Source: Streptomyces sp.
Lineage (GTDB): Bacteria > Actinomycetota > Actinomycetes > Streptomycetales > Streptomycetaceae
Reading direction: 5' to 3'
DNA length: 64,000 nucleotides
Assembly: GCF_019510245.1 (NCBI RefSeq)
Contig: NZ_JAEKKT010000120.1
Coordinates: 62,001-126,000, forward strand
Part shown: positions 6,639 to 63,770 of the stretch, one piece after another
Numbering within the stretch: position 1 is the stretch's first letter
How the letters are laid out: every line of letters begins with the position of its first letter
Position numbers and translations under genes: made by a program
The notes under the pieces: generated by a model
Database searches by the model: none
Told to the model about the DNA's origin: nothing
The model's input: the letters and a program-made list of their open reading frames with translations, nothing else

Positions 6639-6890
6639 GTGGACAAGAAGAACGCCCTGCGCGCCGGCGCCCTGGCTGCCGGTACGACGCTGATGATGCT
6701 GCTCATGTCGTCGCCCGCCCTCGCGCTCACGCGTGACGACGGTGACGACCCCGGCAAGGGCCTGAGCGTCATCCAGACGCTGGGTCTCTACGTCCTGACC
6801 CCGCTCGTGCTGTTCGCGGTCATCGCCGGCCTCGTGATGGTGCTGGACAAGTCCAAGGTCCGCGTCACCAAGCCGAAGGCCAAGGCGTAG
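6639..6890 (+). CDS. Small two-helix membrane protein, unknown function
   Basis: 83 aa from the GTG at 6639. Residues ~7-31 form a hydrophobic signal-like segment ending in SSPALAL. A short acidic loop (TRDDGDDPGKG) follows, then a second span (LGLYVLTPLVLFAVIAGLVMVL) and a basic tail rich in Lys (DKSKVRVTKPKAKA). The arrangement is either a cleaved signal peptide plus one span, or a two-span hairpin. No catalytic motif is visible. It is monocistronic, followed by a very strong hairpin at 6911-6971. Confidence 0.7.
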   Translation: MDKKNALRAGALAAGTTLMMLLMSSPALALTRDDGDDPGKGLSVIQTLGLYVLTPLVLFAVIAGLVMVLDKSKVRVTKPKAKA

Positions 6891-6910
6891 GACCTGGGCT
6901 CCCTACTCCA

Positions 6911-6979: not shown

Positions 6980-7579
6980 TCAGGGGCTGGGCACGGTCAG
7001 GTACCGCTGCACGGTCGGCCCGAGCCACGCCACGATCTCCTCCCGGGCCAGCGCCACGACCGGGGGCAGCCGCACCACGTAACGGGTCAGCGCGAGCCCG
7101 AGCAGCTGCGCCGCGCACAGCCCCGCCCGGGTCGCCACCTGCTCGGGGTCCGGGCACACCCGCTGCGCCACCGGCACCACCTGCTCCCGGAAGATGCCCT
7201 GGAGGCGCTCGGCCCCCGCGTTGTTGGTGACGGCGACCCGCAGCACCGCCGTGAGCTCCTCGTTCGCCTCCCAGATGTCCAGGAAGTGGCCCGTCAGCGC
7301 CCGCCCCACCTCGGTGTGCGGTACCTGGGACACGTCGGGCATGCGCAGGTCCAGCGTGACGGCGGCCGCGAAGAGGCCGTCCTTGCTGCCGAAGTAGCGC
7401 ATGACCATCGAGGGGTCGATACGGGCGTCCTTGGCGATGGCGCGGATGGTGGCCCGCTCGTAGCCGTCGGCGGCGAAGCGTTCGCGGGCGGCGGCCAGGA
7501 TGGCGGAGCGGCTGGCGTCGGAGCGGCGCGCCGCCGGGCCGTTCCCGGACTCTCTGCCTCTACTGGGGGTGCCGGTCAT
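6980..7579 (-). CDS. TetR family transcriptional regulator
   Basis: 199 aa from the ATG at 7579. The N-terminal TetR helix-turn-helix is clear: ILAAARERFAADGYERATI, then AIAKDARIDPSMVMRYFGSK. The C-terminal ligand domain matches the group ending with LGLALTRYVVRLPP (TetR_C_17-like). The gene is divergent from an FAD monooxygenase. Its own start codon touches a run of 14-bp repeats containing TCAACA/TGTTGA half sites (7581-7795), so it very probably binds there, repressing itself and the monooxygenase until a substrate or drug-like ligand is bound. Confidence 0.9.
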   Translation of the reverse strand: MTGTPSRGRESGNGPAARRSDASRSAILAAARERFAADGYERATIRAIAKDARIDPSMVMRYFGSKDGLFAAAVTLDLRMPDVSQVPHTEVGRALTGHFLDIWEANEELTAVLRVAVTNNAGAERLQGIFREQVVPVAQRVCPDPEQVATRAGLCAAQLLGLALTRYVVRLPPVVALAREEIVAWLGPTVQRYLTVPSP

Positions 7580-7580
7580 G

Positions 7581-7795
7581 CCAACAAGCGTAGGCCAACA
7601 AGCGTAGGCCAACAAGTGTGGGTCAACAAGTGTGGGTCAACAAGTGTGGGTCAACAAGTGTTGACCGCCGAATCGGCCCGTCCTAGTCTGGTCAACAAGC
7701 GTTGGTCAACGGTCGTTGGCCCGCGGGTGTTGGCCAACCCCTGTTGGTCAACATCTGTTGGTCAACACCGGCGGGCCAACAGATGTTGGCAACCG
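7581..7795. promoter_or_regulatory. Array of 14-bp operator-like repeats between tetR and the monooxygenase
   Basis: The unit is approximately GTCAACAAGTGTGG. CAACA cores start at 7582, 7596, 7610, 7624, 7638 and 7652 (exactly 14 bp apart). After a ~27-bp non-repeated gap there is a second set at 7693, 7707, 7735, 7749, 7763 and 7777 (multiples of 14), plus a last CAAC at 7790. Several pairs form palindromes such as GTCAACAAGTGTTGAC at 7651-7666. The gap (7667-7691) contains TCCTAGTCT, a plausible -10. Because 14 is not a multiple of three the array is not coding. It fits multiple side-by-side TetR operators. Confidence 0.8.
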
Positions 7796-7819
7796 AGCCC
7801 AGGCACCCAGGAGGCCCCC

Positions 7820-9283
7820 ATGAACGGCACGACTGGCACCCCCGGCACCCCCGACCCCACCCCCCGTGTGATCGTCGTGGGCTCCGGCCCGACCGGCCTG
7901 CTCCTCGCCGGTGACCTCGCCGCCGCCGGCGTCCCGGTCACCCTCCTCGAAAAGCGCCCCCACAAGATCAGCAACCTCTCCCGTGCCTTCGTCCTGCACG
8001 CCCGCGCCCTGGAGCAGCTCGACGCGCGGGACCTCGCCGACGACCTGGAGGCCGTCGGCCGGCCCATCACCCGGATGAACCTCTTCGACGGGCTCACCCT
8101 GGACCTCGGCCCCCTCCCCTCCCGCTTCAACCACGTCCTCGTCCTCCCGCAGTACGAGGTGGAGAAGGTGCTGGAGCGCCGGGCCGCCGAGGCGGGTGTC
8201 GACTTCCGCCACGACTGCGAGGTGACCGGCCTGACCCAGGACGCGGACGGCGTGACGGTCCGCGTCAGGGGCGGGGAGGACCTGCGTGCCGCGTACGTCG
8301 TCGGCACCGACGGCATGCGCAGCGTGGTGCGGGAGGCGGTCGGGCTGCCGTTCCCGGGCAGGTCGGCGATCCGGTCCGTGGTCCTCGCCGACGTGCTGCT
8401 CGCCGAGCGGCCCGAGACGCTGCTGACGGCCGCCGCGGTCGGCGACGCGTTCGCGTTCCTCGCGCCGTTCGGCGACGGCTACTACCGGGTGATCTGCTGG
8501 CACCGCGGCCGCGACGTCCCCGACCACGAGCCGGTGGACCTCGACGAGATCAAGGAGATCACCCGGATCGCCCTGGGCCGGGACTACGGGATGCACGACG
8601 CCCGCTGGATGTCCCGCTTCCACAGCGACGAGCGCCAGGCGCCCAGCTACCGGGTCGGCCGGGTCTTCCTGGCCGGCGACGCGGCGCACGTGCACACCCC
8701 GGCCGGCGGCCAGGGCATGAACACGGGTCTCCAGGACGCGGCCAACCTGAGCTGGAAGCTCGCCGCCGTGCTGCACGGCCACGCCGCCCCCGACCTGCTC
8801 GACACCTACCAGAGCGAACGTCACCCCGTCGGCCGGACCGTGCTGCGCAGCAGCGGCGCGATCGTCCGCCTCGCGATGGCCAAGGGCTGGCAGCTGCCCG
8901 TGCGGGCCGCGCTCGCCACCGCCCTCAACCACCTCGGCCCGGCCCGCCGCAAGGCGGTCGGCCAGGTCACCGGCATCGGCTACCGGTACCCCGCCCCCAG
9001 GGGCGCCCACCGCCTCACCGGCGCCCGCGTCCCCGACCTCGCGCTGGCCGGCGGCGGCCGGCTCTACGAGGCCCTGCGCGGCGGCCGGTTCGTGCTGGTC
9101 ACCCCGGGCTGCTACGACCCGGGTGCGGACCGCGCGGACCGCGCGGACCGTCTGACCGCGGCCCGCTGGGCGAGCGACCGTCGTACGACCCTGCTGGTGC
9201 GCCCCGACGGCTACGTGGCCTGGGCGGCCGAGGACGCCCGGGCGCCGGACATCGAGCAGGCGCTCGCCACCCACCTCGGGTGA
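7820..9283 (+). CDS. FAD-dependent aromatic monooxygenase
   Basis: 487-aa flavoprotein of the PHBH/RdmE hydroxylase class, which hydroxylates aromatic or polyketide-like substrates with O2 and NAD(P)H. The ADP-binding motif VVGSGPTGLLLAGDLA is at ~18-33. The second FAD motif is GRVFLAGDAAHVHTPAGGQG, followed by MNTGLQDAANLSWKL. A C-terminal thioredoxin-like extension (from ~400) resembles that of PgaE/RdmE enzymes. AGGAGG lies 5 bases before the ATG. It is divergent from a TetR regulator across a dense operator array, so expression is probably tightly repressed and ligand-induced; detoxification of an antibiotic or aromatic compound is a reasonable guess. Confidence 0.9.
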   Translation: MNGTTGTPGTPDPTPRVIVVGSGPTGLLLAGDLAAAGVPVTLLEKRPHKISNLSRAFVLHARALEQLDARDLADDLEAVGRPITRMNLFDGLTLDLGPLPSRFNHVLVLPQYEVEKVLERRAAEAGVDFRHDCEVTGLTQDADGVTVRVRGGEDLRAAYVVGTDGMRSVVREAVGLPFPGRSAIRSVVLADVLLAERPETLLTAAAVGDAFAFLAPFGDGYYRVICWHRGRDVPDHEPVDLDEIKEITRIALGRDYGMHDARWMSRFHSDERQAPSYRVGRVFLAGDAAHVHTPAGGQGMNTGLQDAANLSWKLAAVLHGHAAPDLLDTYQSERHPVGRTVLRSSGAIVRLAMAKGWQLPVRAALATALNHLGPARRKAVGQVTGIGYRYPAPRGAHRLTGARVPDLALAGGGRLYEALRGGRFVLVTPGCYDPGADRADRADRLTAARWASDRRTTLLVRPDGYVAWAAEDARAPDIEQALATHLG

Positions 9284-43602: not shown

Positions 43603-43610
43603 CTACGGGA

Positions 43611-43730
43611 GGCGCCTGCGGGGCCGCTCTGCCTGGGCCCTGCGGGGGGGCGCCTGCGGGGCCGCTCTGCCTGGGCCTTGTGGGGGGGCGCCTGCGGGGC
43701 CGCTCTGCCTGGGCCCTGCGGGGGGCGCTG
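43611..43730 (+). repeat. Tandem repeat of a 38-bp unit, three copies
   Basis: Unit GGCGCCTGCGGGGCCGCTCT followed by GCCTGGGCCCTGCGGGGG, starting at 43611, 43649 and 43687. 38 is not a multiple of three and there is no gene here. With the type 1 element it fills most of the 353-bp gap between rpiB and the glycosylase gene. Confidence 0.85.
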
Positions 43731-63383: not shown

Positions 63384-63770
63384 GGCATCCCAGGCTGCCG
63401 GGGTGTGGGGGCGGGAGCTGGTTGCGACGACGTCGCCGTCCGTCGGGCGTGTGGGGACGAAGTCCGGTCGGCACCACATCCGCCTGTCGGGGTGTGGGGA
63501 CGGAGGCTGGTTGGCACCACATCCGCCTGTCGGGGTGTGGGGACGGAGGCTGGTTGGCACCACATCCGCCTGTCGGGGTGTGGGGACGAAGTCCGTTCGG
63601 CACCACATCCGCCTGTCGGCGTGGAGGGACGAAGTCCGGTCGGCACCACGCACCCGCCTCTCGGGCGTGTGAGGACGAAGGCCGGACAGTGCCACACCCC
63701 AGCCCGTCCGGCGTTCGAGGACGAGGCCGTTCAGGCCGAAGCGGGGGTCCGGGGGCGCAGCCCCCGAAGG
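63384..63770 (+). repeat. Tandem array of a 43-bp unit upstream of ndk
   Basis: GGCACCAC-starting units begin at 63470, 63513, 63556, 63599 and 63642, exactly 43 bp apart (GGCACCACATCCGCCTGTCG, then GGGTGTGGGGACGAAGTCC). A diverged copy precedes (63427-63469). The array runs into the common Streptomyces element CCGTCCGGCGTTCGAGGACG and a hairpin GGGGGCGCAGCCCCC. 43 is not a multiple of three, so the repetitive open frames across it are not genes. CCACA/TGTGG in each unit can pair. Confidence 0.9.

Follow-up and report, generated by a model that had tools for sequence, protein, structure and literature searches.

Tandem overlapping 14-bp units, probable operators of an adjacent TetR regulator, appear to form both divergent promoters of a Streptomyces monooxygenase module

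Introduction

What are thirteen copies of a 14-bp unit doing between a tetR gene and the flavin monooxygenase gene that diverges from it? The question is raised by a locus in the window, by which we mean the whole stretch of 64,000 nucleotides of Streptomyces DNA analysed here. An earlier note had described about thirteen such repeats in this intergenic region and had suggested that they are operators of the adjacent TetR. The repeats proved to be exactly thirteen, in strict register and in two blocks, and a comparison across actinobacterial genomes makes it very probable that they are tandem, overlapping operators of the neighbouring TetR and that the same units form the promoters of both divergent genes.

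Results

Geometry of the array

The tetR–monooxygenase intergenic region contains 13 repeat units of 14 bp, arranged in two blocks of six and seven (Table 1). Unit starts fall at 7580, 7594, 7608, 7622, 7636, and 7650 in block 1 and at 7691, 7705, 7719, 7733, 7747, 7761, and 7775 in block 2, with a step of exactly 14 bp throughout inside each block. The array thus lies where it had been placed before (7581-7795), with its extent corrected to 7580-7788. The 14-bp phasing previously noticed for CAACA cores is likewise exact, although CAACA itself occurs in only 10 of the 13 units (CAAC in 12 of 13).

The consensus of the unit is G(T/C)CAACNNNNGTTG, and a unit extended by two bases into the following unit forms a 16-bp palindrome, GYCAACRNNYGTTGRC, so that adjacent palindromes overlap by 2 bp. 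Several palindromes had been claimed for the array. One of them is indeed perfect (7650-7665), but the right half is imperfect (GTAG or GTGG) in five of the six block 1 units and one half is damaged in units 9 and 12, so that the full palindrome is present in only some units.

Allowing at most one mismatch, GYCAACNNNNGTTG has 20 matches in the window, 19 of them inside the array, versus 4.9 expected, and none of 100 shuffles reached 20 matches; the Tandem Repeats Finder score for block 1 is 115. Throughout the window's whole assembly, a two-unit pattern with at most two mismatches gave 18 matches, every one of them in this array, and the reversed control pattern gave 0; this assembly (G000; 11.57 Mb in 556 contigs) is 91% complete with 7% contamination, and its genome-wide counts are somewhat doubtful. 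A coding role for the array was rejected, because a unit length of 14 bp is not divisible by three and the open reading frame running through the array is a mechanical reading. The repeat finder also reported further, longer tandem repeats in the window, with units of about 43 bp (63395-63729) and about 38 bp (43607-43725).

Table 1. Coordinates of the array, its predicted promoter elements and the flanking genes, as positions in the window.
Feature	Position	Strand	Remarks
tetR (P0002, 199 aa)	6980..7579	-	TetR_N + TetR_C_16; start codon 7577-7579 adjoins the array
Block 1	7580..7663	none	Six putative 14-bp operator units, tetR side
Predicted leaderless tetR -10, TACGCT	7587..7592	-	Inside unit 1, 7 nt before ATG
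Candidate tetR -35, TTGTTG	7610..7615	-	Inside unit 3, 17-nt spacer; weak, from sequence only
Perfect 16-bp palindrome GTCAACAAGTGTTGAC	7650..7665	none	Overlaps predicted monooxygenase -35
Predicted monooxygenase -35, TTGACC	7661..7666	+	TTGAC conserved in 153/158 anchored loci
Inter-block segment	7664..7690	none	27 bp
Predicted monooxygenase -10, TAGTCT	7684..7689	+	1 nt before block 2; spacer 17
Block 2	7691..7788	none	Seven 14-bp units (putative operators) over predicted monooxygenase start site and 5' leader
Shine-Dalgarno-like AGGAGG of monooxygenase	7809..7814	+	
FAD-dependent aromatic-ring monooxygenase (P0001, 487 aa)	7820..9283	+	FAD_binding_3 + Rng_hyd_C

The two flanking genes

The tetR product, P0002, combines an N-terminal TetR helix-turn-helix with a TetR-type C-terminal domain, both scoring over the cut-off (PF00440, E 4.2e-13; PF17920, E 7.2e-29), which makes it a member of the TetR family. 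Its predicted model has a mean pLDDT of 86, with helices at residues 45-52 and 56-63. The nearest solved relative by sequence, 2np3 (SCO0857), is also the best structural match (Z 16.3, rmsd 3.2, 170 aligned). The EthR structure 7ngg is found among the structural matches as well (Z 14.2, rmsd 3.4, 176 aligned), tied with many TetR structures, so that the fold searches single out no functional relative; DarR is absent among the matches listed. P0002 scores 37.3 bits against the NCBIfam equivalog of RefZ-type positional TetR proteins, below its cut-off of 180.

The nearest solved relatives of the monooxygenase, P0001, are rifampin monooxygenases and polyketide oxygenases. A classification as a rifampin monooxygenase (Rox/Iri) was rejected, the scores being 371.1 bits for rif_monoox (cut-off 800) and 250.8 bits for Iri (cut-off 950).

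A conserved module of phased sites

We searched for the TetR in 246 genomes of the window's genus and 394 genomes of its class, together with 80 named loci. With identical intergenic sequences removed and loci lacking a monooxygenase hit left out, the Streptomyces set comprises 177 distinct tetR–monooxygenase regions, and a 14-bp-phased pair of units is present in every one of them (177/177, a count of events that are not independent because orthologous loci have common ancestry). Twenty dinucleotide shuffles per region yielded no 14-bp pair. The gene pair without an array, which the earlier note had named as a case that would speak against the operators, was not found among these 177 Streptomyces regions.

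The mean number of detected units per region is 5.9, with four units in 39 regions, five in 46, and six in 36; the range of 2-19 bears out the expectation that unit number varies, here between species. Consecutive units are spaced by 14 bp 639 times, the next most frequent spacings being 41 bp (82) and 42 bp (69). A step of 40-43 bp between blocks defines an anchored set of 158 regions, and the other 19 of the 177 are without this standard gap. Within the anchored set, the commonest contiguous block sizes are 2+2 (43 regions), 2+3 (29), and 3+3 (28), and the 6+7 of the window is the longest contiguous version; two regions total 19 units each, with interruptions. Most versions of this conserved module have two or three contiguous sites on either side of the enzyme promoter, so that multiple sites are the rule for this TetR and the array of the window is an extremely enlarged form.

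The module extends beyond the genus. In other genera of the class, the phased pair is kept in 27 of 30 loci (L253-L282), the exact 14-bp pair being missing in the other three, and it is also found in L239; detection on the enzyme side is limited in these genera by the position of the aligned monooxygenase start. Streptomyces orthologs in which the TetR is 51-56% identical and the monooxygenase only about 40% identical mostly retain two pairs.

Promoters formed by the units

A detected unit adjoins the start codon of tetR in 135 of the 158 anchored regions, and none was detected there in the remaining 23. All 135 of these adjoining units carry A13, T12, and A8; read on the tetR strand, these bases give a TANNNT that ends 7 nt ahead of the ATG. 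Of 421 interior units, a count that leaves out those beside the monooxygenase promoter, 57 have A13 and 161 have A8. A Shine-Dalgarno-like CCTC within 18 nt of the tetR start was found in none of the 135 regions. Taken together, the conserved TANNNT and the lack of a Shine-Dalgarno-like CCTC suggest that the tetR mRNA is probably leaderless and that the operator includes its predicted -10.

On the side of the enzyme, TTGAC closes block 1 in 153 of the 158 anchored regions, and TANNNT stands one nucleotide ahead of block 2 in 134 of them. This conservation agrees with the promoter that had been suspected in the segment between the blocks, for which we predict TTGACC and TAGTCT separated by 17 bp. 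Across the inter-block segment, unit starts are 41 or 42 bp apart at 145 of the 158 anchored loci, steps that give the monooxygenase promoter spacers of 17 or 18 bp. A standard sigma-70 promoter scan reported no promoter; the -10 and -35 hexamers resemble sigma-70 elements only weakly and were judged by their conservation instead. The comparison strongly suggests that the same bases serve as operator and promoter at both divergent genes, whose start sites are predicted ones.

Age and turnover of the units

Pairwise agreement between the units of block 1 is 1.0 at the half-sites and 1.0 at the two central bases, with bases 8-9 identical in all six units, and this identity down to the centres indicates that block 1 was probably duplicated recently. 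In block 2 the corresponding values are 0.89 and 0.19 (a contrast that is somewhat inflated because units are recognised by their half-sites); with its half-sites kept and its centres diverged, this block looks old and maintained, which argues against fresh neutral slippage there.

Slippage is nevertheless the serious rival to our reading, above all for block 1, and we put its chances somewhat below even. According to this explanation, the core sites are operators and the extra units of the window are neutral, replication slippage having multiplied the 14-bp unit to a number that is not under selection. It would account for the near identity of the block 1 units and for a rapid turnover of copy number: the named relatives with the most similar TetR, S. 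shenzhenensis (92%) and S. fuscichromogenes (90%), have 10 and 6 units, compared with 13 in the window, and a label of eight or more units requires at least 22 changes on the TetR tree, five of them forced by well-supported branches (215 rows, built with a quick method that leaves 87 of 212 inner branches open). The same tree shows a mild clustering of the many-unit label, only 1 of 500 shuffles being as low, which fits neutral slippage less well. So do the preservation of the 14-bp phase in expansions (639 consecutive pairs) and the retention of half-sites in block 2 and in the dispersed arrays described below while the centres diverge, a pattern that half-site-based recognition itself favours.

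The array follows the TetR gene

Genomes were scored as TetR-positive when they had a TetR match below 1e-40, which divides 199 Streptomyces genomes into 104 positive and 95 negative ones. The two-unit pattern, with one mismatch allowed, was found in 98 of the 104 TetR-positive versus 1 of the 95 TetR-negative genomes, and the reversed pattern in none of the 199. Profile R1, which models three units from sequence only and was derived from 43 segments flanking tetR, detected arrays in 100 of 104 versus 1 of 95 (counted by hand). More sensitive settings gave 40 of 40 TetR-positive versus 0 of 40 TetR-negative genomes; these 40 positive genomes were partly hand-picked for known extra arrays, and the search of 199 genomes provides the less biased frequencies. 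By elimination, the genomes missed by profile R1 are G107, G120, G141, and G186. Two of these misses concern TetR paralogs (G120, L235; G186, L234), one a TetR frame with a TGA (G141, L071), and one a distant ortholog (G107, L134). The TetR-negative genome G180 has one two-unit match 3' of a CAT, which may be a remnant.

The sites also persist where the target gene has changed. At fourteen loci no monooxygenase was hit next to tetR. A contig end truncates one of them, and the other 13, which are readable, comprise eight with the exact 14-bp pair and five without it. The replacement genes encode an ABM-domain protein (L081, with L085, L087, and L103 similar) or a glyoxalase-superfamily protein (L100), and at L233 2+2 sites have an MFS-transporter gene downstream; one example of each type of replacement was confirmed by Pfam. 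L085 and L103 have unit-like sites with the exact register broken, and L071, where the TetR frame is interrupted by the TGA, is without an array. In G109, which has no TetR ortholog, a 77%-identical monooxygenase gene is preceded by one unit match and, as judged by eye, an eroded unit-like sequence. Three further genomes (G017, G059, and G085) have a monooxygenase with four to five sites and no detected adjoining tetR (L315, L326, and L328), as expected for regulation in trans by a TetR encoded elsewhere in those genomes. The small gene found at about 6640-6891 of the window also neighbours the monooxygenase locus L326 of G059.

At 18 paralogous TetR loci (39-48% identity), the 14-bp pair is absent. 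The recognition helix, mostly IDPSMVMRY(Y/F) in orthologs, differs in 14 of the 18 paralogs (ALVHHYF or similar), and the other four have the ortholog-type helix but no array, with no site near the gene at L216, L217, and L235 and one at L234. The latter, in G186, is a paralog with an MVMRYY-type helix and a single operator-like site just ahead of its gene. Four TetR-negative genomes contain distant monooxygenases with one TCAACNNNNGTTGAC site in a -35-like position (L334-L337), and related single-site systems may therefore exist, perhaps with another TetR that has a similar recognition helix.

Because the comparison tracks the TetR across genomes, across replaced target genes, and across paralogs, we tie the array to the adjacent TetR and not to the enzyme. 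The proposal that the units are operators of this TetR gains support from the comparison in all 177 regions and in 100 of 104 versus 1 of 95 genomes. That they bind another protein, with the TetR association a mere matter of linkage, is highly unlikely. The four paralogs that lack an array despite a similar recognition helix would suit such an explanation, as would the comparative nature of the case for TetR–unit binding, but array presence tracks the TetR genome by genome, pairs outlast the replacement of the target gene at several loci, the predicted tetR -10 falls in unit 1, and the monooxygenases of L326 and L328 keep their sites without an adjoining tetR, the TetR being elsewhere in those genomes. 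Least likely of all is that the array acts at the RNA level, its units folding into hairpins in the monooxygenase 5' leader and affecting attenuation or mRNA stability: the palindromic units of block 2 do lie within the predicted leader, but the tetR side is filled with the same units, upstream of both predicted start sites, units recur elsewhere between convergent genes, and their presence tracks the TetR gene.

Dispersed arrays elsewhere in the genomes

In the 199-genome search, arrays away from tetR and the monooxygenase gene were found in at least eight genomes (G014, G016, G040, G087, G128, G151, G169, and G183). A more sensitive search added G068, which gives at least nine Streptomyces genomes with arrays of 5-17 units and a TetR in nine of nine. 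The difference between at least 8 of 104 TetR-positive and 0 of 95 TetR-negative genomes corresponds to P = 0.007, a value that ignores relatedness and omits G180.

The loci concerned include L308, L309, L313, L314, L316, L320, L321, L324, L325, L329, and L330. At L308, 15 units lie between divergent genes, and L313 and L316 have 13 and 11 units. At L314, nine units take up the whole space separating two convergent genes, and 10 units stand at the corresponding site in another species (L324). A second site common to species has 17 units at L325 and 8 at L330, and a third has 16 at L329 and 13 at L320. The array of L327 (G068) consists of only five units, loosely spaced. Half-sites are better conserved than centres in the dispersed arrays.

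The site of L314 and L324 adjoins a putative penicillin-acylase-like gene, where arrays are found in G014, G016, and G040 (L312, L324, and L314, respectively). We checked this site in 15 TetR-positive and 15 TetR-negative genomes. The gene is present in 28 of them (15 and 13, respectively), and none of the 28 has an array within the 420 bases downstream of it, so the array there is sporadic, which counts against a widely conserved function at this site. Two-unit matches within a putative aldehyde-dehydrogenase-like gene of G014, G128, and G183 (L311, L319, and L322) were excluded as chance coding matches.

A speculative and rather improbable extension is that, in some species, the arrays constitute a chromosome-wide system. 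TetR-bound tracks at places without an evident promoter, the ends of convergent genes among them, would then resemble engineered operator arrays and serve as natural decoys or antennas governing how much repressor is available, or as roadblocks to transcription in both directions.

Discussion

The reading that we prefer, in which the units are overlapping operators of the adjacent TetR and at the same time parts of both promoters, leads to the following proposed mechanism. The comparison strongly suggests that the TetR recognises GYCAACRNNYGTTGRC, a 16-bp palindrome that recurs every 14 bp within a block. Within a unit, 10 bp separate the centres of the half-sites, a spacing that suits a TetR dimer bound to a single face of the DNA, and by analogy with known TetR systems each palindrome would take one dimer; with B-DNA values, the next unit lies about 120 degrees round the helix and 48 Å further on. 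There is likewise strong reason to expect that unit 1 provides the -10 of a leaderless tetR mRNA, that the last unit of block 1 provides the -35 of the monooxygenase gene, and that the predicted start of its transcription coincides with the beginning of block 2. As in known TetR systems, binding would silence both genes until they are freed by a ligand, which might be an aromatic compound or one resembling an antibiotic. With two units filled on each side, the bound repressor would lie over the tetR -10 as well as the -35 and the start site of the monooxygenase gene, and the sites on each side might be filled cooperatively, by analogy with EthR and with the dimer-of-dimers regulators QacR, CprB, and DarR. 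Additional units may lengthen the repressor-covered track and alter the dose response; they could raise occupancy, delay induction, or absorb repressor. The earlier note had proposed coating of the region or a steep, titratable switch as possible consequences.

Multi-operator autoregulation by TetR proteins is a known kind of system. In the portion of one paper available to us (PMC3511530), SCO7222 and SCO7223 of Streptomyces coelicolor are a TetR and a divergent monooxygenase with a 146-bp intergenic region, and SCO7222 has three TGGAACGNCGTTCCA operators, three gel-shift complexes, and a negative reporter effect. That pair resembles the window in its TetR repressor, its divergent monooxygenase, and its several operators, and it is a precedent for a Streptomyces TetR with three sites that represses a monooxygenase gene divergent from its own. 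It differs in its operator sequence and in having three discrete protected sites instead of overlapping, 14-bp-phased arrays, and the same portion of the paper describes no expansion. The autoregulated tetR/tetA pair, as outlined there, has two 15-bp palindromic operators (PMC3511530); it shares with the window divergent genes and common intergenic operators, and it represses both genes, as we infer for the window.

QacR, CprB, and DarR place two dimers on one operator of 20-28 bp, and DarR binds ATACT(N)4AGTAT sites whose palindromes overlap, according to the sections of the two sources drawn on here (PMC4150764, PMC10636190). The window unit has the same four-base gap between half-sites as DarR, and by its sequence geometry it forms overlapping palindromes that could seat two dimers, as those of this class do. 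These sections describe two dimers only for the three regulators, whereas the 14-bp register of the window is repeated up to seven times per block. A larger assembly is formed by EthR of Mycobacterium tuberculosis, a cooperative homo-octamer beside its monooxygenase gene in the part of the account considered (PMC5403819), that is, four dimers, compared with the 13 units of the window. The number and phasing of the window's sites permit several dimers to bind cooperatively on one operator in the manner of EthR. EthA, a Baeyer-Villiger enzyme and not an FAD_binding_3 ring hydroxylase, would differ from P0001, whose domains are FAD_binding_3 and Rng_hyd_C.

What appears to be new is a set of overlapping, 14-bp-phased operators that would double as two promoters, comprise up to 19 detected units, and occur also elsewhere in some genomes. 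A search of the literature by title and abstract opening, with partial coverage and with subscription journals mostly outside it, found no description of the 14-bp array or its motif.

With one conserved repressor and 2 to 19 detected operators, the module is a natural set of variants for measuring directly how threshold, steepness, and noise depend on operator number. It predicts the regulator, and the site of that regulator, for a family of actinobacterial monooxygenases, and it provides a probable example of operator and promoter occupying the same bases at a gene that is probably leaderless. The dispersed arrays in TetR-encoding genomes, finally, raise the question of whether natural decoy or roadblock arrays exist.
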